DNA from: a virus
Virus record (IMG/VR): IMGVR_UViG_3300023210_002204
Location: 1 to 23,792 of that record
Direction: 5' to 3' (one strand)
DNA: 23,792 nt
In this document: in pieces, positions 1 to 23,792 of the stretch
Layout: each line of letters starts with the position of its first letter
Numbering within the stretch: position 1 is the stretch's first letter
Position numbers and translations under genes: made by a program
The notes under the pieces: model-generated
Database searches by the model: none
What the model was told of the DNA's origin: nothing
Seen by the model: the letters and a program-made list of their open reading frames with translations, nothing else

Positions 1-1007
1 AAGCTTATAAATTTGAGGACCGTCTCAAGATATTTGACTTGATTAGACCTGTAACAGTTAATAGTGGTACATCTGCTTTACATTTAGCTTTGGCTTCGGC
101 AGGAATCAGCGAAGGAGATGAAGTTATCCTTCCTTCACAAACATTCATAGCAACGGGGTTAACCATTCTACACCAAAAAGCCACCCCTGTGTTTGCGGAC
201 ATTAATTATATGAGTGGTAACATATCCCCTGAAAGTATTAGAGAAAAAATAACCGATAAAACAAAAGCAATTATGGTTGTCCATTGGGCGGGATATCCTT
301 GTGATATGGACGAAATACAGTTAATAGCTGATGAACATAACCTAATAGTTATAGAGGACGCTGCACATGCTTTCGGCTCGTGGTATAAAGATAGACCAAT
401 CGGTTCTATATCAGATTACACATGTTTTTCATTCCAAGCTATTAAAATGTTAACCACAGGTGATGGTGGGGCTGTTTGTTCGTTAACAGATGAAAACGAA
501 AAACACCTCAAAAAACTTAGATGGTTCAATATTGATAGAGATGATGACAAATCAGACGAACTAGGTGAAAGAGTTTATAACTCTAATGAGATTGGTTATA
601 AATATCATATGAATGATGTCTCAGCCTCTATAGGAATAGGTAATTTATACACTGTTGGTGGTAAACTTAAACGATATAAAGAAATCACTGGTAAATACAG
701 AGAAACATTACATAACATAGAAGGAATTACCCTATTTGAAAATAAATCAGATAGAATTTCATCAAATTGGTTATTCGGTATGCATGTGGACTGTAGAGAT
801 GATTTTATTAAGAAAATGAAGGATAACGGTATTACTACTAGTGTTGTCCATTTAGGTATTGATAAGAACGATTTATTCGGTGGTAAAGATGAGTCTTTAA
901 TTAATCAACGTAAATTCGATAATAGTCAAATTCACATACCAATACACGATGATTTAAGTAATAAAGATGTTGATAAAATAATTAATACAATTAAAAGTGG
1001 GTGGTAA
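1..1007 (+). CDS. DegT/DnrJ/EryC1/StrS-type PLP sugar aminotransferase, 5' end cut by window
   Basis: The product probably transfers an amino group to a keto-sugar nucleotide, using pyridoxal phosphate. The frame is open from the first bases, so the gene starts left of the window; the TTG at 39 is unlikely to be the start, because residues encoded before it (FEDRLKIFD) fit the family's usual N-terminal helix. Family hallmarks are NSGTSALHLAL near the start, IEDAAHAFGS (PLP-binding Asp) and SFQAIKMLTTGDGG, whose Lys (codon 444-446) matches the Schiff-base lysine. The ending IHIPIHDDLS also fits. About 334 residues are visible against roughly 370 for the family, so some 30-40 are missing. It overlaps the acyltransferase gene that follows, a pairing common in N-acylated amino-sugar pathways. 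Class is secure; which keto-sugar is used cannot be told. Confidence 0.9.
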   Translation, partial: AYKFEDRLKIFDLIRPVTVNSGTSALHLALASAGISEGDEVILPSQTFIATGLTILHQKATPVFADINYMSGNISPESIREKITDKTKAIMVVHWAGYPCDMDEIQLIADEHNLIVIEDAAHAFGSWYKDRPIGSISDYTCFSFQAIKMLTTGDGGAVCSLTDENEKHLKKLRWFNIDRDDDKSDELGERVYNSNEIGYKYHMNDVSASIGIGNLYTVGGKLKRYKEITGKYRETLHNIEGITLFENKSDRISSNWLFGMHVDCRDDFIKKMKDNGITTSVVHLGIDKNDLFGGKDESLINQRKFDNSQIHIPIHDDLSNKDVDKIINTIKSGW

Positions 1008-1527
1008 TGTAGATAACATATTTTTCGATAGGACACAACTTAAGTATTGTGGTGAAGACGTTATCATAGGTAAAACAGTTAGAATAAGAAAACCAGAAGA
1101 GGTTTCTATTGGTGATGGTACTATCATAGATGATTTTACTTATATATCTTGTGGTATGACAATAGGTAAACACTGCCACATAGCATCTAATGTTAGTATA
1201 TCTGGTAGTAAGGCTCACCTACACATGGGTGATTACTCAACAATTAGTAATCATTGCTCAATTCATTGTGTATCATCTGATTATAGAAAGATATCCTTAG
1301 ATTTACCGTCAGTTCCAGAAGAAGAAAGATTTGGTGGTGAGTTCGGTGATATACACATTGGTAACAACGTAGTCGTTGGTGCCCATTCTACGATACTCCC
1401 AAATGTTGAAATACAAGATTATGTAGCATTCGGTGCTTACAGTTTGATTAAAGATAGAGATTATATAAAAGGTTATCTATATGTTGGAATTCCAGCTAAG
1501 ATGGTTTGTAAAAGAGAAGAAATATGA
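997..1527 (+). CDS. Left-handed beta-helix (hexapeptide repeat) acyltransferase
   Basis: This 176-residue protein is built from hexapeptide ([I/V]-G-x-x) turns, for example VSIGDG, MTIGKH, IHIGNN and VVVGAHS, which form the left-handed beta-helix of acetyl/formyl transferases. The C-terminal YVGIPAKMV is typical of the WbbJ/NeuD-like sugar O- or N-acetyltransferases. His residues around position 90 (CSIHCVS) and HS near 128 could hold the catalytic base, but I cannot assign it. The start is a GTG at 997, overlapping the aminotransferase by 11 bases; the only ATG nearby is out of frame and runs straight into a stop. Directly behind an aminotransferase, acylation of the new amino group is the simplest role, inferred from context. 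O-acetylation of a glycan is the alternative. Confidence 0.85.
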   Translation: MGGNVDNIFFDRTQLKYCGEDVIIGKTVRIRKPEEVSIGDGTIIDDFTYISCGMTIGKHCHIASNVSISGSKAHLHMGDYSTISNHCSIHCVSSDYRKISLDLPSVPEEERFGGEFGDIHIGNNVVVGAHSTILPNVEIQDYVAFGAYSLIKDRDYIKGYLYVGIPAKMVCKREEI

Positions 1528-2444
1528 AAAAGATTTTAGTTTTAGGTGGTAATGGCTTCATGGGAAAAAATTTACAAGAAGTTTTTAGTGGTTCTAAATA
1601 TGAAATGCATTATCTAAGTAGGAGAGATGGTCTTGATATTACAGACGAGTTTTTATTAACAGACACATTAAAACAAATAAAACCGAATATAATTATTCAT
1701 GCTGCGGCTCATGTTGGTAGTATTAAATATGTTAGTGAAAATGCTGCGGATGTGGTAAACGATAATACAGAAATGTACTTAAACTTATATAAATGTGTTA
1801 AAAATGTTAATAAGGACATCATTGTAATTAACCCAATATCCAACTGTTCATACCCTGGTATTATTGATGTACAAAATGAAGACTTATGGTGGGACGGCCC
1901 AATACATGAGAGTGTTGAATCGTATGGAACACCAAAGAAAATGGGTTATATTATATCTAAATGTTATGAAAGGCAATATGGGGTTAAGACATTAAATCTA
2001 ATTGTGCCTAACGCATATGGACCAAATGATTACTTAGATGAGGAAAGGACGCATGCGATGAATGGTATAATTATGAGAATGTTAAATTCAATGTCCAAGG
2101 GTGATAAAGAATTTTCAGTTTGGGGTAGTGGTACACCAATAAGAGAATGGATTTATATGCCTGATGTTGGTAGGATTATTAAAAAAATTATTGATGATGA
2201 AATATTTGATTTACCCAACCCAATAAATCTAGGGCAAGAACATGGGGTATCAATAAATGAAATTGTTAACATGGTAAAAAATAGTTTAAATTATGGTGTT
2301 AATATTGTACATGATTTAACTAAACAAGATGGAGCACCAGTTAAAGTTTTGGGTAATAAATTATTTACAAAACACTTTAACGACTTTATATTCACAGAGT
2401 ACGATGAAGGTATAAAAGAGACAATAAAATATTACACAAAATAA
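1524..2444 (+). CDS. GDP-L-fucose-synthase-like extended SDR epimerase/reductase
   Basis: A 306-residue extended short-chain dehydrogenase. It has the NAD(P) loop GGNGFMG (8-14), the AAHVGSI segment seen in GDP-fucose synthases, an active-site Y142-xxx-K146 (YIISK), and the later patches PNAYGPNDY and WGSGTPIREWIY, which closely follow the fucose-synthase pattern. That family converts GDP-4-keto-6-deoxymannose to GDP-L-fucose by epimerisation and reduction. The catalytic Cys/Ser region reads NPISNCSYPG, close to the usual S-S-C-I-Y-P. The start ATG overlaps the previous stop as ATGA, so the two are translationally coupled. No GDP-mannose 4,6-dehydratase lies in the window, so the substrate must come from the host or from genes further left. 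Exact product is unproven. Confidence 0.85.
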   Translation: MKKILVLGGNGFMGKNLQEVFSGSKYEMHYLSRRDGLDITDEFLLTDTLKQIKPNIIIHAAAHVGSIKYVSENAADVVNDNTEMYLNLYKCVKNVNKDIIVINPISNCSYPGIIDVQNEDLWWDGPIHESVESYGTPKKMGYIISKCYERQYGVKTLNLIVPNAYGPNDYLDEERTHAMNGIIMRMLNSMSKGDKEFSVWGSGTPIREWIYMPDVGRIIKKIIDDEIFDLPNPINLGQEHGVSINEIVNMVKNSLNYGVNIVHDLTKQDGAPVKVLGNKLFTKHFNDFIFTEYDEGIKETIKYYTK

Positions 2445-2446
2445 AT

Positions 2447-3388
2447 ATGAAAAAAATATTCATAACTGGTGGGGCAGGATATATAGGGACAACATTAATA
2501 CCAACATTATTACAAGAAGGTTTTAATGTAACAGTATACGATTCATTAATGTTTGATAATGGTGATAAACTGTTACCATATATTTCCAATAAACATTTTA
2601 ACTTTATTAAAGGTGATATTAGGAATGAAGAATTATTAAGAGATAGTATGATTGGTTATGATGTTGTTATACACTTAGCAGCATTGGTTGGGTTTCCTTT
2701 ATGTAGAGAAGCTGGGGAAGATGAATCTTACTCTGTCAATACCAATGGTACTGAAATTGTTATTAGAAACATGAGTGAAGACCAATACTTATTATTTGGT
2801 TCAACTGGGTCAAACTATGGTGAGGTAGTTGGGGTTTGTATTGAAGAAACACCATTAAACCCATTATCTATATATGGTAGAACAAAAACAGAAGCTGAAA
2901 CTAAGGTTATGGGTAGACCTAATAGTACAGCGTTTAGGTTCGCTACAGCATTTGGTTTATCCCCAAGACTAAGACTTGACCTATTGGTTAATGATTTAAC
3001 TTATAAGGCTTATAAGGAAGGCTATGCTGTTATTTATGAATCCCATTTTTTAAGAACCTTTATACACGTTAAGGATATCACTAGAGTATTCTTATTTGCG
3101 ATACAAAATCAAAATAACATGAGGGATAATGTGTATAATGTTGGTTCTGATAAAATGAACTATTCTAAGAAGGAGGTTTGTGAATTAATAAAAAAGGAAT
3201 TACCTAACACGTATTTTAATTATGCTGATGTTGGAACTGATGTTGATAAAAGAAACTATAAGGTTAGTTACGATAAGATACGTAAATTAGGTTTTGATAC
3301 TATCGTAGATGTAACTGATGGTATAAAAGAAGTGGTTAAAAGTATGCCACTCATTAAAATAACATCTAATTACCATAATATGTTTTAA
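2447..3388 (+). CDS. NAD-dependent nucleotide-sugar epimerase/dehydratase (copy 1)
   Basis: A 313-residue extended SDR. The Rossmann loop is GGAGYIG (8-14), followed by VYDSL and GDIRN, with catalytic Y143-xxx-K147 (YGRTK) and an upstream S/T in FGSTGSNYG. It is clearly paralogous to the protein at 5796-6758: both carry an unusual central segment of the form LR(L/M)DL(L/V)VN-LT-KA followed by K-G. The family acts on the 4-position of nucleotide sugars, as epimerase, dehydratase or reductase. Starting two bases after the previous stop, it reads as part of the same transcript. The C-terminal tail (about 295-313) is not family-like. Substrate unknown. Confidence 0.85.
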   Translation: MKKIFITGGAGYIGTTLIPTLLQEGFNVTVYDSLMFDNGDKLLPYISNKHFNFIKGDIRNEELLRDSMIGYDVVIHLAALVGFPLCREAGEDESYSVNTNGTEIVIRNMSEDQYLLFGSTGSNYGEVVGVCIEETPLNPLSIYGRTKTEAETKVMGRPNSTAFRFATAFGLSPRLRLDLLVNDLTYKAYKEGYAVIYESHFLRTFIHVKDITRVFLFAIQNQNNMRDNVYNVGSDKMNYSKKEVCELIKKELPNTYFNYADVGTDVDKRNYKVSYDKIRKLGFDTIVDVTDGIKEVVKSMPLIKITSNYHNMF

Positions 3389-3401
3389 ATGAAACTAGAT
3401 G

Positions 3402-3410
3402 GATGTTTAT
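3402..3410 (+). promoter_or_regulatory. Degenerate copy of the GATATTTAT candidate late promoter
   Basis: GATGTTTAT, one mismatch from the GATATTTAT element found upstream of other genes here, and followed by the same AATAAAAAA tract as the copy at 13409. It lies in one of the few real gaps of the glycan island (3389-3438), 28 bases before the ATG at 3439. It might give a second entry point into the island. The match is inexact and the spacing longer than at other sites, so this is a weak call. Confidence 0.3.
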
Positions 3411-3438
3411 AATAAAAAATAATTTTAAAAAATGAATT

Positions 3439-4362
3439 ATGAAAAATAAAATAGGGTGGTTAGTAAATGACCAATTAACAGGAATACCAAACACAAGAAC
3501 GTTTTGGCATGATTTATTAGATTGGTTCCCCAATCTTCAAGATAAATGTGATGGATATACAAATTATGGTGTATTACCACAAAAAATAGAATCTATTAAG
3601 GAACGTCCTGATTATATTATCAGAAATGGTACTTATTTTAGAAAACTTAATATTGATGTCCCAACATTTTGTTTGATTCAAGATACAAAAGTTGATTCGA
3701 CACAAACAGATGTTATAAACTCATCTACATGTGTTGTGTTCGCCTCCAAAGAAACACATAACATTTATAAGCCTAGGATTAACCCACAAAATGTTAGGGT
3801 AATTGAACAGTCTTCTGATTTTGATTTTTTTAAACCTATACCTGAAAGACACCCAGACGTTTTACCTAACTCAATTATTTTTATAGGTGATTCTTCTCAT
3901 GTAAAAAAAGGTTTCCATAGGGTTTTAAATCTTATTGAAAAAATGCCTGATTTTAATTTTTGTTTAGTGATGAAAGATAATACGCCTATTGATGTTATCC
4001 CACCTAACAGTAGAGATAGAGTACGCATATTTAATAGAGTTGACAGGGATACTGTTAAACTTCTAATTAATTCATCTGTGTGTGCTATATGTACATCTGG
4101 TAATGAGGAAGGTCATTTTGCCGGGATAGAGATAGGTGCGTGTAACATACCAATGGTAGCTAGACCTATGGGGTGTTATCTAGACAGAAAAGATGATAAA
4201 TCTTGGGGTTTAATATCAGAAGATGAGGATTTTCCTGAAACAATAAGATATGTTGTTAATAACCTTGAAGAGTTCAGTCCTCGTAAATACTATTCGAAAG
4301 AGTATACATTGGGAAGGTGTCGTGAAAAGTGGTCTGACCTAATAAACGAATTCGTTAAGTAA
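3439..4362 (+). CDS. GT-B glycosyltransferase, GT4-like
   Basis: A 307-residue retaining-type glycosyltransferase candidate. The C-terminal half looks like a GT4 nucleotide-sugar domain: FIGDSSHVKKGFHRVL (about 148-163) resembles the conserved G-x-x-x-x-x-K-G-x-x-x-L stretch. The segment from about 220 to 245, with E224, G225, E231, G233 and A234, matches the E-x7-E donor-binding signature. The N-terminal half (KIGWLVND, later CLIQDTK and VVFASKET) fits an acceptor-side Rossmann domain of reduced size. No membrane helix or signal peptide is apparent, so it should act in the host cytoplasm. It follows a gap of about 50 bases. Donor and acceptor are unknown. Confidence 0.8.
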   Translation: MKNKIGWLVNDQLTGIPNTRTFWHDLLDWFPNLQDKCDGYTNYGVLPQKIESIKERPDYIIRNGTYFRKLNIDVPTFCLIQDTKVDSTQTDVINSSTCVVFASKETHNIYKPRINPQNVRVIEQSSDFDFFKPIPERHPDVLPNSIIFIGDSSHVKKGFHRVLNLIEKMPDFNFCLVMKDNTPIDVIPPNSRDRVRIFNRVDRDTVKLLINSSVCAICTSGNEEGHFAGIEIGACNIPMVARPMGCYLDRKDDKSWGLISEDEDFPETIRYVVNNLEEFSPRKYYSKEYTLGRCREKWSDLINEFVK

Positions 4363-4364
4363 TT

Positions 4365-5222
4365 ATGAAATTTACAGCAGAAATATTATCGGGTTTATGT
4401 AATGTTCTTAAAGCGTTTGTTACGGCTTTGAGTATGACAGAAGAGGGGAATACTAACCTAAAACCAAAATATAACCATTGGTTCGATGCTGATTATACTG
4501 AGGTTTTAGATGATAGTTTAATTTGTCATGGTCCTGAAGAGATGGGTGAGTCTTTTGTTACAGCAAGATGGCTTATACTAAAAGAAGAAGAGGAAGGACA
4601 ACCTGACTTAATTAACGACGCTAAGAAATTAGGTGACCACCCTAATATAGCGAACAAAAAACTATCACCATTATTCTCCACGCACTCCATTGATTGGTTC
4701 TATGATAGAAGTTTAATTAGTGATGATGTGTATAATAGAATTCAGAGTGGGATTAAAAAGATAAAATGGAGAGATGGGGTTCTATCTGAGGTTGATAGGG
4801 TTACAAATGAATTTGGGGAAGGTCCATTATTGTCTATACAAATAAGAACTTGGAAACATAAATGGGACCCACCTGGAGATTGGAAAAATAGTCCTAGAGA
4901 TGGTGTTGTAAGAGATTATAACTTTGAAACATATAAAGACGCTATCTATAAGTTCCTACATAGTGAAACACCACCAAAAACAATTTTCCTAACTTCCGAC
5001 ACAGAGAGTCTTTTACCACAATATTTGGATTACTTGAAAGACTACGATGTTAAGGTAGTAACTTACACCCAACCTGAAAACGTTACACAAATGCAGTTTT
5101 CTGTGGCAACTATGTTGATAGCTTCAAAATGTGATATGTTAGTATGTAGTCGTCTAAGTACATTTTCTGAATGTATTTGGTGGTTTGGTGGATGTAAAGC
5201 AACCACAATACCTGTTTTTTAA
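4365..5222 (+). CDS. Fucosyltransferase-fold glycosyltransferase (GT11/GT23/NodZ-like), putative
   Basis: A 285-residue protein with three motifs in the order seen in the GDP-fucose-using GT-B group. They are an N-terminal SGLCNVLKAF (9-18), resembling the GLGN-x-L loop; SIQIRTW (157-163), resembling the V-H-I-R-R motif that binds the donor; and a C-terminal FLTSDTES (208-215) then CSRLSTFSEC (261-270), resembling the T-D and S-x-x-S-x-F-S motifs. The standard loop Gly is replaced by Cys (GLC instead of GLG). No signal peptide or membrane segment is visible. A fucose-synthase-like gene in the same run supports a fucose or related 6-deoxyhexose donor, but that is inference. The match is by motif pattern only. 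Confidence 0.6.
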   Translation: MKFTAEILSGLCNVLKAFVTALSMTEEGNTNLKPKYNHWFDADYTEVLDDSLICHGPEEMGESFVTARWLILKEEEEGQPDLINDAKKLGDHPNIANKKLSPLFSTHSIDWFYDRSLISDDVYNRIQSGIKKIKWRDGVLSEVDRVTNEFGEGPLLSIQIRTWKHKWDPPGDWKNSPRDGVVRDYNFETYKDAIYKFLHSETPPKTIFLTSDTESLLPQYLDYLKDYDVKVVTYTQPENVTQMQFSVATMLIASKCDMLVCSRLSTFSECIWWFGGCKATTIPVF

Positions 5223-5264
5223 AAAATAAATAAAATGGGATAATTTAATTAAAAAATCAATAAA

Positions 5265-5795
5265 ATGGAAAATACTTTTGGGTATCCTGGGTCTAAACAT
5301 AATCATTCACATTTTATAGCTGAATTGGTTAAACAAATAAATTGCAAAACATATCTAGAATTAGGTATATATGATGGTATTACGTTATCATTAGTAGAAC
5401 CTTTTGTAGATAGAATCATCAGTGTCGATATTAAAGATATTAGAAGGTGGAGAATAGGTGAGTTTCATTTAGAAACTACAGATAGTTTTTTTGAACACTT
5501 TAATGAAAAGGTAGATGTTGTCTTTATTGACGCTGACCATAATTTTGAATCTGTTAAAATAGATTTTGAAAATTCAGTAAAATTATTAAATGAATTTGGT
5601 ATGATTATATTACACGACACAGACCCGATGGAAAAAATGTATTTAGAACCTAGGTATTGTGGTGATTCATATAAAATGGATGAATGGTTGCGTGAAAATT
5701 ATACAGATTTTGATGTTATGACATTACCATTAACACAAGCTGGACTCACTATTGTAAAGAGAAAGGCTGATAAAAGAGTGAATAAATACTTATAA
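5265..5795 (+). CDS. Class I SAM-dependent methyltransferase (Methyltransf_24-like)
   Basis: A 176-residue Rossmann methyltransferase. Motif I is YLELGIYDG (30-38), the acidic end of strand 2 is in ISVDIKD (about 52-58), and the core strands carry DVVFIDADHNFESV (84-97) and MIILHDTD (113-120). The FIDADH/LHD arrangement is typical of the Methyltransf_24 type, which includes sugar O-methyltransferases of polysaccharide clusters. HDTD could place a metal ion or a general base. Set between glycosyltransferases and an epimerase, O-methylation of a sugar is the likeliest role, though this comes from context. A 42-base AT-rich gap precedes it. The next gene begins immediately after its stop. Confidence 0.8.
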   Translation: MENTFGYPGSKHNHSHFIAELVKQINCKTYLELGIYDGITLSLVEPFVDRIISVDIKDIRRWRIGEFHLETTDSFFEHFNEKVDVVFIDADHNFESVKIDFENSVKLLNEFGMIILHDTDPMEKMYLEPRYCGDSYKMDEWLRENYTDFDVMTLPLTQAGLTIVKRKADKRVNKYL

Positions 5796-6758
5796 ATGAA
5801 AAATAAAAAAATTTTAGTATGTGGTGGGTCTGGCTATATAGGTGGGCTTACTTGTGATTATCTATTAGACGCTGGGTTTGAAGTTATGGTTTATGATAAT
5901 CTATTATATGAAAACAGATATCTTAAAGACATACCATTCATTAATGGTGATATAAGGGATACAGAAAAATTATATGAGGCATCAAAAGATTTTGATGTTA
6001 TAGTTTTAATGGCTGCTTTAGTTGGTGACCCAGCTTGTAGTGTCGACCATAAATTAACAGAAGAAATAAATTATAAAGCTATTAAAGATTTTTGTAATGT
6101 TGTTTCCCCTCATAAACATATAATATTTATGTCTACTTGTTCGGTTTATGGAGCTCAAGACGGTATGTTAGATGAAAATAGTGACACTAACCCATTATCG
6201 TCTTACGCAGCAACAAAATTACAAGCAGAGAAACACGTATTAGATTTAGGTGGTACCATTTTTAGATTAGGCACTGTATTCGGTTTAGGTGATACATATT
6301 CTAGACTTAGAATGGATTTAGTTGTTAATGTCTTAACTATGAAAGCTATCAAATATGGTGAAATAACAATTAATGGTGGTGAACAATGGAGGCCTATAAT
6401 TGCAGTTAAAGATATTGCTGGATATGTTACTGAGGCTTGTGAAAAAAAACATGAAGGAGTATATGTTTTATCATTAGAAAATGTTATTATTAAAGAGTTA
6501 GGTGAAAGAGTGGTTAGTATGATTCCTAATACTAAAATCAACTATACTGAAATATCTTTCCAAGACGCACGAAACTATAAAGTGGACAATTCAAAAGCTT
6601 TAGAGGTTTTTGATTATAAAGCTAAAGTAACGGTTGAGGAAGAGGTTATCAGAATGGTTGATATGTTTAAAGATGGGAGAGTTAAGAACCCTGAAGATAA
6701 AGTATATCACAATGGTGCTTATTTAACGAATAAAAAAGAAAATAAACAATTAGTTTAA
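5796..6758 (+). CDS. NAD-dependent nucleotide-sugar epimerase/dehydratase (copy 2)
   Basis: A 320-residue extended SDR and a diverged paralogue of the 2447-3388 product. The cofactor loop is GGSGYIG (10-16), followed by VYDNLLY and GDIRD. The active site is Y137-xxx-K141 (YAATK), with FMSTCSVYG upstream supplying the Ser/Thr, the more canonical form of the two copies. The shared segment LRMDLVVNVLTMKA matches copy 1. A C-terminal tail (about 290-320, ending KENKQLV) is absent from copy 1. It starts directly after the methyltransferase stop and its own stop overlaps the next ATG (TAATG). The two copies have probably specialised on different nucleotide sugars or on successive steps. Confidence 0.85.
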   Translation: MKNKKILVCGGSGYIGGLTCDYLLDAGFEVMVYDNLLYENRYLKDIPFINGDIRDTEKLYEASKDFDVIVLMAALVGDPACSVDHKLTEEINYKAIKDFCNVVSPHKHIIFMSTCSVYGAQDGMLDENSDTNPLSSYAATKLQAEKHVLDLGGTIFRLGTVFGLGDTYSRLRMDLVVNVLTMKAIKYGEITINGGEQWRPIIAVKDIAGYVTEACEKKHEGVYVLSLENVIIKELGERVVSMIPNTKINYTEISFQDARNYKVDNSKALEVFDYKAKVTVEEEVIRMVDMFKDGRVKNPEDKVYHNGAYLTNKKENKQLV

Positions 6759-7369
6759 TGGATGTAATTGATAAAACATTTTGGGAAAATAAACACGGTG
6801 TTAGTGATAGATATTGGTTAACAGGTTCTTCACTAAAAGAAATTATGACACTACATGAGATTAGTGAAGATGATTTAACCGACACAAAGGTTTTAGAAAT
6901 TGGGGTTGGTTTAGGTACGTTGTCTAGAGATATTTTTAAATACACAACGGATTTGTTATGTTGTGATATATCGGAAAAGGCGCTAGATAGTGTGAACCCA
7001 AATGTAACTAAAAAATATCTAACAACTGATTTATCTAAAATTGAGCCTGTAGATTTAGGTATATGTCATCTAGTGTTTCAACACTGTACTGATGGGGAAA
7101 TTGAAAGAATCATTAACGATATTGTATTAACTGATGATGGTATATTCACATTCCAATTCGCTTTCCTACGAAATGGTGAAAAACCGAACGCAAATGTTCA
7201 AAATTTAATTGAATTGGGTTCGCATCATTTTAGAAGTATTGAAACGATTGAGAAAATGGTCGATAAATCGGGTAAAGAAATTGTATGGACATCAAAACCA
7301 TACCATTATTATGAACCGGAGAACTTTAGTTGGTTAATGGTTAAAATTAAAAATAAAAACAATGGATAG
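6758..7369 (+). CDS. Class I SAM-dependent methyltransferase
   Basis: A 203-residue methyltransferase. Motif I is VLEIGVGLG (45-53), strand 2 ends in CCDISEKAL (68-76), and LVFQHCTDGEIERII matches the motif IV/alpha-D region of Methyltransf_11/25-type enzymes. The N-terminal WENKHG...RYWLTG resembles the substrate-entry helix of small-molecule methyltransferases. It is not closely similar to the other methyltransferase at 5265, so a second position, a second sugar or a different acceptor is likely. It overlaps both neighbours (1 base upstream, 8 bases downstream), which argues for coupled translation in the glycan transcript. No DNA-methylase motif (DPPY, PC) is present. Confidence 0.8.
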   Translation: MDVIDKTFWENKHGVSDRYWLTGSSLKEIMTLHEISEDDLTDTKVLEIGVGLGTLSRDIFKYTTDLLCCDISEKALDSVNPNVTKKYLTTDLSKIEPVDLGICHLVFQHCTDGEIERIINDIVLTDDGIFTFQFAFLRNGEKPNANVQNLIELGSHHFRSIETIEKMVDKSGKEIVWTSKPYHYYEPENFSWLMVKIKNKNNG

Positions 7370-7781
7370 TATAAAAGTTTTAAACGGTGGGATTGCTATT
7401 GATGATAGAGGTTCGGTATGTTTTGTTAATGACTTCAACTTTGAAGGTGTTAAGAGATTCTACCAGGTTGAGAATCATAGACAAGGTTTCATCAGAGCGT
7501 GGCATGGTCACAAAAAAGAGGGTAAATACGTTTACGTAACAAATGGTTCAGCACTTATTGGTGTTGTTGACATGGAAACCGAAGAGGTTTCTAAATTTGT
7601 ATTAAGTAGTAAATCACCAAAGGTTCTTTGGATACCACCTGGAAATTATAATGGTTTTAAATCATTAGAAGAAGACACTAAAATAGTGTTCTTCTCAACA
7701 TCAACTATAGAAGAAAGTTTAGGAGATGACATTCGTAAAGAATATGACCAATGGGACATTTGGGATGAAGATTATAGATAA
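7362..7781 (+). CDS. RmlC-like cupin, dTDP-4-dehydrorhamnose 3,5-epimerase-related
   Basis: A 139-residue single-domain cupin. FIRAWHGHKKEGKYVYVTNG (43-62) corresponds to the RmlC region with the conserved active-site His (R-G-x-H), here with two histidines, H48 and H50. KVLWIPPGNYNGF (87-99) corresponds to the W-I-P-x-G-x-x-H-G-F strand, with the usual His changed to Asn. At about 140 residues it is shorter than classical RmlC (about 180), closer in size to sugar 3,4-ketoisomerases of the FdtA/WxcM group. The RmlD-like gene behind it favours the 3,5-epimerase reading, while the aminotransferase upstream would suit a ketoisomerase. Both are kept open. Confidence 0.75.
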   Translation: MDSIKVLNGGIAIDDRGSVCFVNDFNFEGVKRFYQVENHRQGFIRAWHGHKKEGKYVYVTNGSALIGVVDMETEEVSKFVLSSKSPKVLWIPPGNYNGFKSLEEDTKIVFFSTSTIEESLGDDIRKEYDQWDIWDEDYR

Positions 7782-7784
7782 GAT

Positions 7785-8636
7785 ATGAGACAAACAAAAA
7801 TATTTGTATTTGGAAATTTAGGTATGTTAGGCCGTTACGTTTACATATACCTTAAACAACGAGGTTATAATGTAGTTGGTGTTGGTAGAACTGACATTGA
7901 CGCATCTGACCTTTGTAGTGGAATTCTACATAAATATGTAGAACATAATATGCACGATGGTGACATCGTAATAAACTGTATGGGTATAATTAAACCTAGA
8001 GTAAATGAATGTTCTCCTGAAGAATTTATTAAAGTTAATTCATTATTCCCAAGAGAATTAGCTAATATCTGTGAACAATACGGTGTTAAGTTAATCCACC
8101 CAACAACGGACTGTGTTTATACGGGTTCTAAGGGTGATTACAATGAGAATGACCCTTATGATGTTTCAGATGTGTATGGTATGTCTAAAGCGTTAGGGGA
8201 ACCTTCTAACTGTACAGTGGTTAGGACATCGATTATTGGTGAAGAAGTTGGGCAAGGTCGTTCATTGGTTGAATGGGTTAAAGGTAATAAAGGTGGAAAT
8301 ACTAATGGGTACTTAAATCATTATTGGAACGGTGTAACTTGTTTACAGTTTGGTAAAATAGTAGAAACTATGATTGAGGGTGATTTGTTTTGGAAAGGTA
8401 TTAAGCACTTACATTCAGATAAATTAGATAAACAACAATTATCTGAATTAATTAACGATTCATTCAATTTAGGCATAACAATAACACCTGTGACGGTTGA
8501 CACATCGGTTGATAGGTCTATAACAACAATACACAACGATAACTTAGAGAAATTCAACATACCATCATTAAAAGTACAAATACAAGAGATGGTTGAGTTT
8601 CATGATACACTTTTCTCAATGGGGGTAGTAAATTAA
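7785..8636 (+). CDS. RmlD-like NDP-4-keto-6-deoxysugar reductase
   Basis: A 283-residue SDR of the RmlD type, which reduces the 4-keto group of NDP-4-keto-6-deoxyhexoses. The cofactor loop reads GNLGMLG (10-16), lacking one usual Gly. INCMGIIKPRVNEC (63-76) matches the family's N-x-A-A-x-T-x-V-D-x-x-E region only loosely. PTTDCVYTG (106-114) is the Ser/Thr strand and Y131-xxx-K135 (YGMSK) is the catalytic pair, followed by ALGE. It starts three bases after the RmlC-like gene, the usual RmlC-RmlD order. It closes the glycan island; the next gene has a different function. Confidence 0.8.
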   Translation: MRQTKIFVFGNLGMLGRYVYIYLKQRGYNVVGVGRTDIDASDLCSGILHKYVEHNMHDGDIVINCMGIIKPRVNECSPEEFIKVNSLFPRELANICEQYGVKLIHPTTDCVYTGSKGDYNENDPYDVSDVYGMSKALGEPSNCTVVRTSIIGEEVGQGRSLVEWVKGNKGGNTNGYLNHYWNGVTCLQFGKIVETMIEGDLFWKGIKHLHSDKLDKQQLSELINDSFNLGITITPVTVDTSVDRSITTIHNDNLEKFNIPSLKVQIQEMVEFHDTLFSMGVVN

Positions 8637-8639
8637 TAT

Positions 8640-9425
8640 ATGGCAAAAACAGGTAGAAGAAGAGGTAAACTCTCAGAAGAAGAAATAGAGGAAGTGAATA
8701 ACTTCGTTTATAGTAAAAACATAGAGGAAGATAAATATCTGAAGACTATGTCAATTAACACTAAGTGTAGAAACGAAAATCAAAAGAAATTAGTTAATTC
8801 TATTAAGGAGAACGAAATAACAATTGTTTCAGGATTACCTGGGACTGGTAAAACGTTTTTAGCTTGTGCTGAAGCGTTAAAATTAGTCAAAACAAGACCT
8901 AAGTATAAAAAAATTCTACTAGTTAAATCAGTAATCCAACTACCAGGTGAAGAGTTGGGTTTTCTACCTGGTGATATGAAGGAAAAATTAGAACCTTACA
9001 TGATTTCATTTATTGATAACTTTGAAAAAATTATTGGTGAGTCGTTAACTAAGAAGTTAAGAGATTTAGGTATCATTCAGATACAACCCTTGGCCTTCAT
9101 TAGAGGAAGAAGTATAGATAATACAGTAATCGTTGTTGATGAGGCACAAAACATCTCTAGAGACAATATGAGAACACTTATGACTAGAATTGGAGACAAC
9201 TCTAAGATGGTTATCCTTGGTGATGTTAGACAAAAAGATATTAAGAACAAAAATAACAGTTCACTAGAAACCATATTAGAAAAATTTAGAGATTATGCTG
9301 GTTTTGGGTGTGTAGAACTTAGGGACCCTAATGACGTAGTTAGAAACCCAATAATAAAGGTTATTGAATCTGTTTTTGAAAATATGGTTGAGAATGAATC
9401 CAACCAAAACAGTAAATCGTACTAA
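8640..9425 (+). CDS. phoH: PhoH-family ATPase
   Basis: A 261-residue P-loop ATPase. Walker A is GLPGTGKT (65-72) and Walker B with the following Gln is VIVVDEAQN (163-171). Between them lie the PhoH signatures ELGFLPGDMKEKL and AFIRGRSID; VILGDVRQKD is the sensor-like strand after Walker B. PhoH proteins are very common in marine and T4-like phages; bacterial relatives are linked to phosphate stress and RNA metabolism, but the phage role is not established. The start follows an A/T-rich leader with no Shine-Dalgarno. The N-terminal 40 residues are basic and rich in Glu and look like a flexible extension. Confidence 0.92.
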   Translation: MAKTGRRRGKLSEEEIEEVNNFVYSKNIEEDKYLKTMSINTKCRNENQKKLVNSIKENEITIVSGLPGTGKTFLACAEALKLVKTRPKYKKILLVKSVIQLPGEELGFLPGDMKEKLEPYMISFIDNFEKIIGESLTKKLRDLGIIQIQPLAFIRGRSIDNTVIVVDEAQNISRDNMRTLMTRIGDNSKMVILGDVRQKDIKNKNNSSLETILEKFRDYAGFGCVELRDPNDVVRNPIIKVIESVFENMVENESNQNSKSY

Positions 9426-9426
9426 T

Positions 9427-9579
9427 ATGTGGAATTATAGTATATCACAATGGGTCATATCTGACGGTCAAACAGAACCGCATGGTGTCGTACTACAAAT
9501 AGATAATGGTGACACACAATACTTGACAATAGAAGACTACACACTATTCTTAAAAAACAGAGAAAAAATTAAAAAATGA
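9427..9579 (+). CDS. Small hypothetical protein, 50 residues
   Basis: A short gene between the PhoH stop and the HAD-like gene. The ATG at 9427 (MWNYSISQW) was chosen over two upstream in-frame ATGs because those would overlap the PhoH end by up to 62 bases, while 9427 starts right after its stop. The last codons overlap the next ATG as ATGA, arguing that it is translated. It contains two Trp near the start, then LQIDNGDTQYLTIEDYTLFL, suggesting a small beta-hairpin plus helix. No family recognised. Confidence 0.6.
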   Translation: MWNYSISQWVISDGQTEPHGVVLQIDNGDTQYLTIEDYTLFLKNREKIKK

Positions 9580-10274
9580 AAATAGGGATATCGATTGATG
9601 GCGTTTTAAGGGACTTACTAGGCCAAATAGAAGAAACACATAAAAAATATTTCCCAACCGAAGAAGGTGAGGAACCCATCAGTGTTAAGGATTACCATTT
9701 AGAAAAATGGGTTACATTTCCTGACGAAGAAGTTAAGCAGGGTGAAATGGATTTTAACCCTGAGTTTAATGAGGATAATTTTTTAGAATCTGAAGAAGAC
9801 ACCGAATTAATTAAAGTAACAAAAAAAGTTACTCTAGACGAATTTCTATATGAAAGGTGTACGGTAGAGGTGTTTGGTTATGCTAGTGAAATTGTTAACT
9901 CAGCTGTTGAGTCGTTAAATAATTTAATTTTAGAAAACCCTAAACACAAATTCATATTAATGAGTAGGGAGGGGGGATTAGCGGTACCATCAACGTTATT
10001 TTTCTTATCTAAAACCAAGTCTATATGCCCAAACATTAAGTTTGTTACTGAATACTCCAAGGTTTGGGACCATGTAGACATTATGGTCACAGACCACCCA
10101 AAAATATTAAACACAAAACCTTTAGATAAATTAAGTATTATCATTGACAAAGAGTATAACAAAAAGATAACTCAATCAGGTCATAGATTAAAAACAATAA
10201 AAGAGGTTGATGAGAGACTTTTAGATAATTTTGAGGAGTCGTTAAAAGGTAATAATACTCATTGGGTTTTATAA
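9576..10274 (+). CDS. HAD-superfamily-like protein with altered catalytic site
   Basis: A 232-residue protein whose start, KIGISIDGVLRDL (2-13 region), resembles motif I of HAD phosphatases such as phage 5'(3')-deoxyribonucleotidases (D-x-D-G-V-L). Here the nucleophile position is Ser6 while the second Asp (D8) is kept. FILMSREGG (126-134) fits motif II with its Ser, and DIMVTDHP (158-165) with LSIIIDKEYN (176-185) fits the motif IV region. An acidic insert (about 48-80) separates motif I from the cap region. Loss of the nucleophile predicts a non-phosphatase or binding-only protein, unless chemistry has changed. Coupled to the gene before it by ATGA overlap. The fold call is motif-based and moderate. 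Confidence 0.5.
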   Translation: MKIGISIDGVLRDLLGQIEETHKKYFPTEEGEEPISVKDYHLEKWVTFPDEEVKQGEMDFNPEFNEDNFLESEEDTELIKVTKKVTLDEFLYERCTVEVFGYASEIVNSAVESLNNLILENPKHKFILMSREGGLAVPSTLFFLSKTKSICPNIKFVTEYSKVWDHVDIMVTDHPKILNTKPLDKLSIIIDKEYNKKITQSGHRLKTIKEVDERLLDNFEESLKGNNTHWVL

Positions 10275-10685: not shown

Positions 10686-11789
10686 ATGGAAAACACACAA
10701 AATTTAAATCAACAAAAAGAAAACAAAGTTGATTTTAAAGACCTTCTAGAAACACAAATTAAAAATTTAGAAAACAAAAATTTTAAATTATATTTTTTTG
10801 TGATGGACACAAAGGGTAACCCTACCGCTGGTATGGCTAATATATATAAACACGTTAAAACACTTAGGGGCTTGGGGTATGACGCTAATATATTACATGA
10901 AAAAAATGAATACACAACAGTTAAAACGTGGTTAGGGACTGAATATTCAGAATTACCACACGTATCTATAGAGGACCAACAACTTAAAGTAAACTCAGAC
11001 GATATTGTTATCATACCAGAAATATTCGCTAACGTAATGGAACAAACAGCAAAATTACCATGTAAAAGAATTGTTATGTGTCAAGCTTATGATTATGTAT
11101 TGGAGATGTTGATGCCTGGTAAGAAATGGTTAGATTATGGTATAACAGATTGTATCACAACAACAGAAAAACAATCTACACATTTAAAAGAACTAATGGG
11201 TCCATCACTAAAAACAGAAATTGTACCCGTATCTATACCTAAGTTTTTTAAACCATCAGAAAAACCAAAAAAACCTATAATCGCTATTTTTACTAGAGAC
11301 CAAAGAGACACTGTTAAAATATTTAAAACATTTTATATTAAATACCCACACCTAAAGTGGTTCACATTTAGAGATATGAGAAATATGCCTACAGAAAAGT
11401 TTGCTGAAAACATGGCAGAATGTTGTATATCTGTTTGGGTTGACGAAATATCTGGTTTTGGTACATTCCCAGTTGAATCAATGAAGTGTGACGTACCAGT
11501 ATTAGGAAAAGTACCAAATATGGTACCTGAATGGATGGAAGACAAAAATGGTCTATGGACTCATGAAATTAATGTAATTCCAGATATTTTAGCTAATTAC
11601 ATACAAGCATGGTTAGAAGATGCAGCACCTGAAGAACTATATGAAAAAATGGGTGAAATGTCTAAAAAATATACTGAAGAAGAACAAAAAGAAAAAATAC
11701 AAGAAGTATATGGTAGAATAATTGATAATAGAGTTTTAGAGGTTAAGGCTAAATTAGAAAAATTAGAACCAGTAAATAACGAAAATTAA
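10686..11789 (+). CDS. GT-B glycosyltransferase (GT4-like)
   Basis: A 367-residue protein with a GT-B outline. The N-terminal domain begins after a charged Asn/Gln/Lys-rich leader of about 33 residues with YFFVMDTKG, then AGMANIYKHVKTLRGLGYD (48-66), the helix after the glycine-rich acceptor loop. The C-terminal domain starts near IIAIFTRDQRDTVKIF. The donor site reads SGFGTFPVESMKCDVPVLG (256-274), with E265 and the G-x-F/P-V pattern of GT4 enzymes, then NGLW. A helical Glu/Lys-rich tail (about 310-367) follows. It sits apart from the left-hand island, next to a GT2 enzyme, so the pair may act on another acceptor such as a virion protein or DNA base. That is speculation from position. Confidence 0.75.
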   Translation: MENTQNLNQQKENKVDFKDLLETQIKNLENKNFKLYFFVMDTKGNPTAGMANIYKHVKTLRGLGYDANILHEKNEYTTVKTWLGTEYSELPHVSIEDQQLKVNSDDIVIIPEIFANVMEQTAKLPCKRIVMCQAYDYVLEMLMPGKKWLDYGITDCITTTEKQSTHLKELMGPSLKTEIVPVSIPKFFKPSEKPKKPIIAIFTRDQRDTVKIFKTFYIKYPHLKWFTFRDMRNMPTEKFAENMAECCISVWVDEISGFGTFPVESMKCDVPVLGKVPNMVPEWMEDKNGLWTHEINVIPDILANYIQAWLEDAAPEELYEKMGEMSKKYTEEEQKEKIQEVYGRIIDNRVLEVKAKLEKLEPVNNEN

Positions 11790-11800
11790 AATAAACAAAA

Positions 11801-12610
11801 ATGGAAAAAATAACAGTAATCCTACCAATACATGAGTTAGGGGAAAAAGAGAAAGACTACTTTCTAAACGCAATTGAGAGTGTTTGTGACCAAAACATAG
11901 AAACAAAACCAAAGGTTTTAGTTGTGGCAAGTAACGAAAACTTAAAAAAAGAAATAGAATCTTTAGAGTATAAGGATGGTATAAAAGATAATATTGAAGT
12001 TGTTGTAAACAGTGGTGATTCAGATTTTTGTTCACAGGTAAACTTTGGTGTTGATACTGTCACTACTGAATGGTTTAGTATATTAGAAATGGATGATGAG
12101 TACTCTAAAATTTGGTTTAAAAAGGTTGAAGAGTATATGTCACACTATAACGATGTTGAGGTATTCTTACCGATAGTATTGGATGTGTCACCAGAGGGGA
12201 AATTCCTACATTTCACAAACGAACCAGTTTGGGCACCGGAATTTAGTGATAAACTAGGGTTTCTAGATAATGATTCATTACTAAACTTCCCAAACTTCCA
12301 AACATCGGGTGGTGTTTATAAGAAAGAATCGTTTAAGTCAGTAGGTGGTTTTAAAAGTAGTGTTAAATTACATTTTGTGTATGAGTTATTATTAAGGATG
12401 ACCTATTATGATAAAACCATAATGACGATACCAAAATTAGGTTATAAGAAAGTTAATATGAGAGAAGACTCTCTGTTTTTTAATTATTATAATGGTATAA
12501 AAAAGGTGGACCCACTTGAAGCAAAATGGTGGTTTAATACAGCAAAAAAAGAATGTTACTTTAAACAAGATAGAGGCATAACCTATGAATTAGAGGAACA
12601 AAACGTATAA
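11801..12610 (+). CDS. Family 2-like (GT-A) glycosyltransferase
   Basis: A 269-residue GT-A protein. It starts with the family's ITVILPIHE strand, has AIESVCDQN (24-32) matching the usual A-x-x-S-x-x-x-Q helix, and carries ILEMDDEYS (94-102), where D98-D99 stands in the place of the metal-binding D-x-D. SGGVYKKESFKSVGGF (about 168-183) matches the G-x-x-x-x-x-x-x-x-x-x-G-G-F acceptor-side patch, followed by a Tyr-Glu where many members have Glu-Asp. No membrane segment is visible, so it is likely cytoplasmic. It lies 12 bases after the GT-B gene and just before the sigma factor. Donor and acceptor unknown. Confidence 0.75.
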   Translation: MEKITVILPIHELGEKEKDYFLNAIESVCDQNIETKPKVLVVASNENLKKEIESLEYKDGIKDNIEVVVNSGDSDFCSQVNFGVDTVTTEWFSILEMDDEYSKIWFKKVEEYMSHYNDVEVFLPIVLDVSPEGKFLHFTNEPVWAPEFSDKLGFLDNDSLLNFPNFQTSGGVYKKESFKSVGGFKSSVKLHFVYELLLRMTYYDKTIMTIPKLGYKKVNMREDSLFFNYYNGIKKVDPLEAKWWFNTAKKECYFKQDRGITYELEEQNV

Positions 12611-12611
12611 C

Positions 12612-13394
12612 ATGTCAGAACAACCAAAGAAAAGGGGTAGAAAACCAACAAAAAAACCTTACTTTGGTCCAGAAGAAGAAGAAGCGGTAAAGAAATATCT
12701 TGAGCTTGGAGAATTAGTTGTAGACCCTAACACACAGGATGGGTATAGATGGACAGGTACGACAGAAGAAGACATACAAAGGAATAGATTATATAGTGGA
12801 AGTTTAAAAGCTCCACTAAATAAGATGGTAGAAAGTATTATTAGAAGATACAAACTCTACTCAAAGACGATGGAATATGAAGATTTACATGCAGACACAT
12901 TAGGGTTTCTGCATGTTAAATTTCATAAGTTTAAGCCAGCAAAAGGTAAAAAATCGTATTCATATTACGGAACTGTGGTTAAACATTATCTTTTAGGTAA
13001 ACTAATCAAAGAAGATAAAAAACTTAAACAGAATTTAAATTTCGATGACGTACTCCCAATGGTGGAAGAAAAGGATGATTTGATTTACACTATTGATGAA
13101 CAAAAATTAGATTTAAATTTACTAATTGGGAACATCGGTAAATCAATAAAAAAAGAGATGGAAACTAAGGTTCTAAATGAGAATGAGAGAAAAGTAGGTA
13201 GTGCTTTGGTCTCAATTCTTGGTGGGTGGGAAAATCTATTTGATGACGATAATGTCCCAGGTAAAAATAAATTTAATAAAAACCTAATACTATATTATAT
13301 GAGAGAAATGACCTCTTTAAACACTAAAGATATTAGAAACGCAATGAAAAGGTTTAAAGTAATTTATAATATATTAAAAGAAGAATCTTTTTAA
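12612..13394 (+). CDS. Late transcription sigma factor, T4 gp55-like
   Basis: A 260-residue protein whose central part (about 65-137) follows sigma region 2: LNKMVESIIRRYKLY, then EYEDLHADTLGFLHV, then F-x-P-A-x-G and SYYGTVVKHYLLGKLIKED. This is the order core-binding helix, D-L-x-x-x-x-x-G, F-x-P-x-x-G, then DNA-melting helix. T4 gp55 has the same arrangement and directs host polymerase to late promoters together with the sliding clamp. The N-terminus has an AT-hook-like KKRGRKPTKK. The C-terminal part (about 195-260) has a helix-turn-helix-like stretch, MTSLNTKDIRNAMKRF. It stands immediately before the structural block and its GATATTTAT element. No gp55-type clamp-binding C-terminal tail (LDFLY) is seen; the end is NILKEESF. 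Confidence 0.8.
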   Translation: MSEQPKKRGRKPTKKPYFGPEEEEAVKKYLELGELVVDPNTQDGYRWTGTTEEDIQRNRLYSGSLKAPLNKMVESIIRRYKLYSKTMEYEDLHADTLGFLHVKFHKFKPAKGKKSYSYYGTVVKHYLLGKLIKEDKKLKQNLNFDDVLPMVEEKDDLIYTIDEQKLDLNLLIGNIGKSIKKEMETKVLNENERKVGSALVSILGGWENLFDDDNVPGKNKFNKNLILYYMREMTSLNTKDIRNAMKRFKVIYNILKEESF

Positions 13395-23436: not shown

Positions 23437-23792
23437 CTATCTTAATTCTCTAACATCAAATGTACGTAATCCATCAACCTTGATTGTCCCGTAGAAGCGG
23501 TTGTTCACCATTTTCTTAGCGTAACGTGTCATGATACCTTTTACAGGTACGAAGTTGAAAGGGTTATACATTGTAGGAGTCAATTGTAATGGTACATAAG
23601 GTGCGTAAATGTACCCAGTATCCAATAATGACTTACCTTTATGTCCAATAATGATTGAGTTAGCTGGAGCGTAAGGGTCACGGTAAACAGTATATCTACC
23701 ACCTAATGAACCTACTCTCTCAATTCCCATATTATATTGGTCTTGTTCTGGAGAAGCGTTAGATACGTGGAAGTACTCTAAATCATCAAACA
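23437..23792 (-). CDS. Major capsid protein, T4 gp23-like, C-terminal part
   Basis: Only the last 118 residues are in the window; the frame is open to the edge, so the Met at 23730 is internal. The segment matches the C-terminal P-domain end of gp23: DPYAPANSIIIGHKG, then SLLDTGYIYAPYVPLQLTP, NPFNFVPVKGIMTRYA and the closing FYGTIKVDGL. In T4 the equivalents are D-x-Y-A, V-G-Y-K-G, A-G-x-Y-Y-A-P-Y-V-P-L and F-Q-P-V-x-G-F-x-T-R-Y. gp23 forms the hexamers of the T4-like head and is processed by the gp21 protease during maturation. Its own terminator follows. This is the strongest marker of the phage's lineage in the window. Confidence 0.95.
   Translation of the reverse strand, partial: FDDLEYFHVSNASPEQDQYNMGIERVGSLGGRYTVYRDPYAPANSIIIGHKGKSLLDTGYIYAPYVPLQLTPTMYNPFNFVPVKGIMTRYAKKMVNNRFYGTIKVDGLRTFDVRELR

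Follow-up and report, generated by a model that had tools for sequence, protein, structure and literature searches.

Why should a phage related to T4 carry a long run of genes for making, modifying and transferring sugars? The question is raised by IMG/VR record IMGVR_UViG_3300023210_002204, analyzed here over its entire length of 23,792 bases (the window), in which eleven open reading frames, g01 to g11, occupy positions 1-8636 and are joined directly to phage genes. Comparison with related contigs indicates that this island forms the right-hand portion of a hypervariable locus, predicted to build glycans, which sits at a fixed site in the genomes of an uncultured clade of the T4 superfamily. 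We are confident that phages of this clade acquire, lose and exchange cassettes at this site, in blocks or one gene at a time, as the comparisons below show, and this would probably proceed by recombination in the conserved flanks.

A variable glycan cassette at a fixed site

With the late sigma factor of the window as query, 137 relatives were found among viral contigs, and loci were fetched for 80 of them. Up to 40 kb upstream of the sigma gene from 22 contigs, together with shorter loci, gave 31 cassettes, that of the window included. The contigs compared reach 380 kb, and two clade members, L018 (380 kb) and L042 (345 kb), lie on contigs of jumbo-phage size. All 31 contigs carry the cassette at this one site, between a two-domain glycosyltransferase and PhoH. 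The left anchor runs in the order DNA polymerase B, a conserved GT-B glycosyltransferase, an exonuclease or HD protein, dUTPase and the two-domain glycosyltransferase; the right anchor runs PhoH, a HAD protein, orf15, GT1b, GT2 and the late sigma factor, followed by the baseplate. GT1b and GT2 are two glycosyltransferases beyond the island as it was delimited in a first-pass annotation of the window. The left two-domain glycosyltransferase is present in two copies in G003 (L102:7426-9000 and L101:11447-12988); unrelated genes separate the two, and one of them lies about 16 kb to the left of the other. Escherichia phage vB_vPM_PD06 (L146, 43764-46940) has an unbroken run of four glycosyltransferases next to its primase/helicase and DNA polymerase genes, and one of these glycosyltransferases is a distant relative of the clade's left-anchor GT-B enzyme.

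Cassettes with both edges known comprise 5-23 genes over 3.5-19 kb, almost always on a single strand. Clustering at 35% identity placed the 354 cassette genes in 182 families, 114 of which occur in one cassette only. Among 175 family representatives, a Pfam scan recognized glycosyltransferase classes (GT2, GT7, GT10, GT11 and GT17), short-chain dehydrogenases/reductases (SDRs) and GDP-mannose dehydratase, as well as UDP-GlcNAc 2-epimerase, NeuB, DegT, hexapeptide acyltransferases, methyltransferases (FkbM included) and sulfotransferases. Almost every recognizable family is one of glycan enzymes, with no tail-fiber family in the set shown. Enzymes of fucose chemistry turn up repeatedly: GDP-mannose 4,6-dehydratase is found in 13 of the 31 cassettes and a GDP-fucose-synthase-type SDR in nine, alongside the fucosyltransferase families GT10 and GT11. 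The GDP-mannose dehydratase has relatives in 87 records of Escherichia phages as well. Few of the relatives' contigs (6 of 27) encode a nucleotidylyltransferase, so host nucleotide sugars probably feed part of the pathway. A 457-residue protein in which a HAD phosphatase is fused to a nucleotidylyltransferase recurs in several cassettes (L129:16412-17785 in G012, L125 in G008 and L121 in G015).

Membership of the T4 superfamily is indicated by a T4-type major capsid protein, by the late sigma factor and by DNA polymerase B in the left flank of the relatives. Support for the sigma factor named in the first-pass annotation comes from its family, in which 9 of 22 proteins match the late sigma group phrog_234 (best E-value 1.8e-5), although the window protein alone is not recognized, and the match to T4 gp55 (chain 7d7c) has an E-value of 0.047. 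Its best match in cultured phages, at 27% identity, is in Flavobacterium phage immuto, which has no annotated sugar genes near sigma. A near-identity search with the island found no match among phage records. Shine-Dalgarno motifs were counted at 8 of 181 genes (window, G001, G003, G004, G008 and G012) against 9.4 expected from shuffling, and this lack of enrichment, taken with the link to immuto, hints at a host in the Bacteroidota.

Exchange of cassettes between phages

Over 465 pairs of contigs, cassette content is only loosely related to backbone identity (Spearman 0.19). The identity of the HAD protein in the right anchor follows the backbone (rho 0.69), whereas that of PhoH, at the cassette edge, is uncoupled from it (rho 0.19), and PhoH probably recombines together with the cassette. 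At least two divergent types of PhoH exist (about 35-45% versus 60-80% identical), distributed independently of backbone.

Contigs G008 and G012 have 17 of 20 cassette genes in common at a backbone protein identity of 47-48%, and an 8.9-kb block is 94.5% identical between them at the DNA level, against 65-71% for backbone and flanking DNA. The gene order of G008 recurs in two more contigs, L073 and L076, which makes an assembly error an unlikely source of this block. The window itself has five cassette families in common with G020, whose backbone proteins are about 51% identical to its own, and, over the stretch compared, no cassette genes in common with its nearest backbone relatives L004, L008 and L012, whose GT1b and GT2 proteins are 73-78% identical to those of the window. 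Relative to L002, the window is 80-82% identical over the segments g07-g08 and g10-PhoH, and 68% over the backbone. In the window, g09 is inserted cleanly, as a single gene, between these segments; it is absent from between g08 and g10 in L002, G016, G017 and G020.

The module g07-g08-g10-g11 is under purifying selection (ratio of nonsynonymous to synonymous substitution rates, dN/dS, of 0.05-0.31), and the frames of the island are intact, so the inactive or broken copies that would have spoken against the first-pass annotation were not found. Relatives of g08 at 56-92% identity were found directly in eight other phage contigs. Its best relatives in species genomes are at most 36% identical, in a pattern-based scan that may miss some; judged by that scan, g08 is without a close bacterial relative in the genomes covered. 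In L090 and L003, relatives of g08-g10-g11 or of g11 stand amid other genes, with no PhoH-sigma backbone in the fetched stretch. By homology, this module is also found outside the fixed cassette site.

Genes of the island

The eleven genes are all on the plus strand and tightly packed, with overlaps or gaps of 0-4 bases at every junction except for 50 bases before 3439 and 42 bases before 5265. Profile matches bear out the aminotransferase, acyltransferase, four SDRs, two methyltransferases and RmlC-like cupin of the first-pass annotation, along with the adjacent PhoH and, overall, an island for making, modifying and transferring sugars inside a T4-related phage (Table 1). The two glycosyltransferases that it listed fared differently: g05 has weak support, with counterparts 43-46% identical in the cassettes of six relatives, and the label is unproven for g06, which has no functional family match, no Pfam match and no useful match to PDB sequences. 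The single-sequence AlphaFold model of g06 (pLDDT 39) was not used.

Table 1. Features of the window, with the matches and conservation on which each assignment is based
Feature	Coordinates	Strand	Evidence and remarks
g01, DegT/DnrJ/EryC1 sugar aminotransferase	3..1007	+	PF01041 7e-85; PDB sugar aminotransferases; 5' end cut by contig start
g02, left-handed beta-helix (hexapeptide) acyltransferase	997..1527	+	PF00132 1.7e-17; GTG start
g03, SDR, GDP-L-fucose-synthase type	1524..2444	+	PF01370 2.8e-36; motif NPISNCSYPG
g04, SDR, GalE-like epimerase type	2447..3388	+	PF01370 2e-27
g05, probable GT-B glycosyltransferase	3439..4362	+	PF00534 8e-4; PHROG glycosyltransferase 1.8e-7; weak support
g06, possibly a glycosyltransferase	4365..5222	+	only a PHROG of unknown function; relative in L085
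g07, methyltransferase (Methyltransf_24)	5265..5795	+	PF13578 7e-10; 56-88% identical in relatives
g08, SDR, GalE-like, core of shared module	5796..6758	+	PF01370 1.6e-29
g09, S-adenosylmethionine methyltransferase	6758..7369	+	PF08241 24.2 bits (cut-off 21.2), 9e-6
g10, RmlC/FdtA-like cupin isomerase	7362..7781	+	PF00908 2.5e-10, PF05523 5e-6; 66-87% identical in relatives
g11, RmlD-like SDR, final cassette gene before PhoH	7785..8636	+	PF04321 1e-20; 50-81% identical in relatives
PhoH, right edge of variable region	8640..9425	+	PF02562 1.4e-60
HAD/NT5C-like protein, conserved right anchor	9576..10274	+	PF06941 9.5e-5, below cut-off; 31/31 cassette contigs
GT1b, GT-B glycosyltransferase, clade-wide	10686..11789	+	31/31; 8xsg glucosyltransferase profile match 7e-16
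GT2-family glycosyltransferase, clade-wide	11801..12610	+	PF00535 6e-9; 31/31
Late sigma factor (gp55-like)	12612..13394	+	via family match to phrog_234
Major capsid protein, C-terminal part	23437..23790	-	phrog_138 major head protein 4e-18; 84-94% identical across relatives

The exact sugar cannot be named, because none of the ten island proteins taken into an NCBIfam scan reached a cut-off. The nearest model to g01 is PseC, below the cut-off of that model; g02 matches the NeuD/PglB family at 2e-14, also below cut-off, and g03 matches NF047922 at 9e-40, under the equivalog cut-off. The genes g04 and g08 are paralogous and fall into one family. A dTDP-rhamnose pathway (RmlA-D) was rejected, since g10 and g11 miss the equivalog cut-offs of TIGR01221 and TIGR01214 by a wide margin; the window has no RmlA- or RmlB-type gene, and none of its genes bears a 4,6-dehydratase signature.

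A probable cytosolic pathway and its likely acceptor

By hydropathy, there are no multi-span membrane proteins among the 354 cassette genes, the few flagged having single, mostly marginal segments. The initiating transferase family PF02397 was absent from the 27 contigs searched and the flippase family PF01943 from the 21 searched, while control searches for both were positive in most cellular genomes. These results point to a cytosolic pathway, and the last two led us to reject the idea that the phage assembles a lipid-linked O-antigen on its own. The AlphaFold model of GT1b (pLDDT 88) has a GT-B fold, and its top Foldseek match (TM-score 0.72) is 8xsg, the Actinobacillus glucosyltransferase AmGGT, kin of the accessory glucosyltransferase in the cytoplasmic adhesin-glycosylation system of Actinobacillus. 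No relative of GT1b was detectable in 50,697 phage records, cultured phages included. The apparent cytosolic character of the pathway and the likeness of GT1b together favor an acceptor in the cytosol, the simplest candidate being a virion protein.

Each cassette would make a particular set of rare sugars, often fucosylated, methylated, acetylated or sulfated to judge from the enzyme classes, starting from host nucleotide sugars. The cassette glycosyltransferases and the four clade-wide ones (the left GT-B enzyme, the left two-domain enzyme, GT1b and GT2) would build an oligosaccharide in the cytosol and transfer it to an acceptor that is likeliest to be a virion protein from the adjoining late genes. 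Each phage lineage would then display a distinct surface glycan, and grazers, phage-binding molecules or receptor mimicry may provide the selection driving the variation. We put forward this complete explanation, an exchangeable fixed-site cassette that produces a glycan on a virion protein, tentatively, as having somewhat less than an even chance of being right in all its parts. The first-pass annotation had offered host-surface remodeling, virion decoration and DNA-base modification as possible uses; the case is now weaker for autonomous O-antigen synthesis and for T4-type DNA glucosylation, and a virion protein appears the most likely acceptor.

Several points weigh against the virion protein. 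GT1b matches the protein-glycan enzyme only remotely (about 21% identity), and other enzymes that it resembles well in structure act on small molecules. The synteny with late genes is weak support for such an acceptor. The missing flippase is also compatible with host lipid-linked intermediates, because O-antigen glycosyltransferases are often soluble or peripheral.

A more specific form of the virion-protein explanation may be entertained with greater reserve. The clade would own an O-antigen-like 'serotype locus', in which the four conserved soluble glycosyltransferases attach a core glycan to proteins of the virion and the exchangeable cassettes of 5-23 genes provide every phage lineage with a particle glycan of its own making. 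If true, virions would undergo antigenic variation through cassette exchange between phages.

Alternatively, the cassette could keep competing phages from adsorbing (superinfection exclusion or serotype conversion) by altering the O-antigen, capsule or glycoproteins of the host during infection, with the help of the host's own lipid carrier, flippase and polymerase. The enzyme classes of the cassettes overlap those of O-antigen loci, their variability is similar, and the authors of a study on pelagimyophages propose such a role for the glycosyltransferases of SAR11 phages (PMC7029224). We nevertheless consider host remodeling rather unlikely, given the missing membrane functions described above and the position of the cassette next to late genes, which would leave little time to replace a surface coat.

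Sugars might instead be placed on modified bases to protect phage DNA from host nucleases, as with the glucosyl-hydroxymethylcytosine of T4. In favor of this, the conserved left-anchor glycosyltransferase lies beside DNA polymerase and dUTPase genes, and related glycosyltransferases adjoin replication genes in Justusliebigvirus. However, genes of the thymidylate-synthase family were found in 11 of 27 contigs, three contigs as long as 128-226 kb lack the family, and all seven members read keep the Asn of LGxPFN rather than the Asp of dCMP hydroxymethylase. T4-style hydroxymethylcytosine is therefore unsupported, and dCMP hydroxymethylase was rejected as the identity of these seven genes. The T4-type pair of dCMP hydroxymethylase and base glucosyltransferase was not found, base glucosyltransferase families not having been scanned directly. 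The left glycosyltransferase (F7) lacks any PDB sequence match, and long fucosylated, sulfated and methylated oligosaccharides would be odd on DNA. A hydroxymethyl-uracil route may exist, but DNA hypermodification is on the whole improbable. In G006 (IMGVR_UViG_3300033984_000473), thymidylate synthase was matched as three pieces of a single 761-residue open frame at 41393-43651; a stretch of about 1.1 kb separates the first piece from the second, possibly an intein or a large insertion.

That the cassettes are non-functional stuffer or passenger DNA from hosts, filling headful-packaged genomes, was raised by the cyanophage authors for lipopolysaccharide (LPS) clusters (PMC3037559) and would agree with the high turnover, yet it is very improbable for a cassette that is present in 31 of 31 contigs, has intact frames, is under the selection described above and consists, where recognizable, almost wholly of glycan enzymes. 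A chimera in which assembly joined host polysaccharide DNA to the phage at about 8.6 kb has the sharp change of functional class at 8636/8640 as its sole point in favor. It can be dismissed, as the independent contig L002 aligns unbroken over 7373-9384 at 80% DNA identity, the order g10-g11-PhoH recurs in other contigs, no close homolog of g08 was found in bacteria and GC content is even throughout island and phage genes (0.29-0.36).

Comparison with known systems

In chloroviruses, a viral GDP-mannose dehydratase and GDP-fucose synthase and the virus's own transferases supply virion glycans (PMC4691112). The autonomous glycosylation of chloroviruses and mimivirus resembles the present system in its virus-encoded enzymes of the GDP-fucose route and its own transferases, and differs in belonging to eukaryotic viruses. 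We know of no homologous locus or exchange cassette there. Among phages, virion glycosylation in mycobacteriophages is based on few transferases. The mycobacteriophages Che8, Corndog and Myrna, as summarized in PMC12363180 from Freeman 2023, use enzymes that they themselves encode to glycosylate the capsid and the tail tube. They have phage-encoded glycosyltransferases in common with the present clade; unlike there, where action on virion proteins has been demonstrated, the clade is known from its genes and carries a whole variable pathway.

Bacterial O-antigen and capsule loci (for example galF-gnd) have conserved, fixed flanks around an exchangeable cassette of sugar-synthesis and transferase genes. 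The present locus shares this design, but it is phage-borne and no flippase or initiating transferase was found in it. The cassette exchange in this clade suggests that phages, like their hosts, rapidly diversify surface-sugar loci by exchange.

Sugar clusters are known in the T4-like cyanophages P-SSM2, S-SSM7 and S-SM2 (Kyanoviridae), one of the P-SSM2 clusters lying near phoH, and the authors left their function open (PMC3037559). The P-SSM2 run that we read has 15 genes, including nucleotide-sugar epimerases, GDP-mannose dehydratase, glycosyltransferases and methyltransferases, beside hli genes; with this run and cassettes of up to 23 genes in relatives, the first-pass view that the eleven-gene set is larger than usual for a phage does not hold. 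Both are clusters of nucleotide-sugar and glycosyltransferase genes in T4-superfamily phages, but the cyanophage clusters occur only in the larger genomes and vary in position, whereas in the present clade the site is fixed in every member examined. Such clusters in phages were earlier written off as potential stuffer DNA or taken to act on the LPS of the host; a cassette that occupies one site in every clade member examined, lies between conserved glycosyltransferases and is both selected and freely exchanged makes the questions of acceptor and of selection for diversity testable.

Pelagimyophages have a hypervariable host recognition cluster with glycosyltransferases and tail fibers, located between the structural genes VrlC and gp14 and diverging gradually (PMC7029224). 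This cluster, like its cyanomyophage equivalent, is a large hypervariable island at a fixed place with glycosyltransferases, as is the present locus, which differs in lying between replication and late-sigma regions, in the dominance of glycan enzymes among its recognizable genes and in the replacement of whole blocks. The clade offers many new transferases and the sugar module g08-g10-g11, and what is new in its locus is the universal fixed site, the conserved flanking glycosyltransferases and the exchange of blocks.

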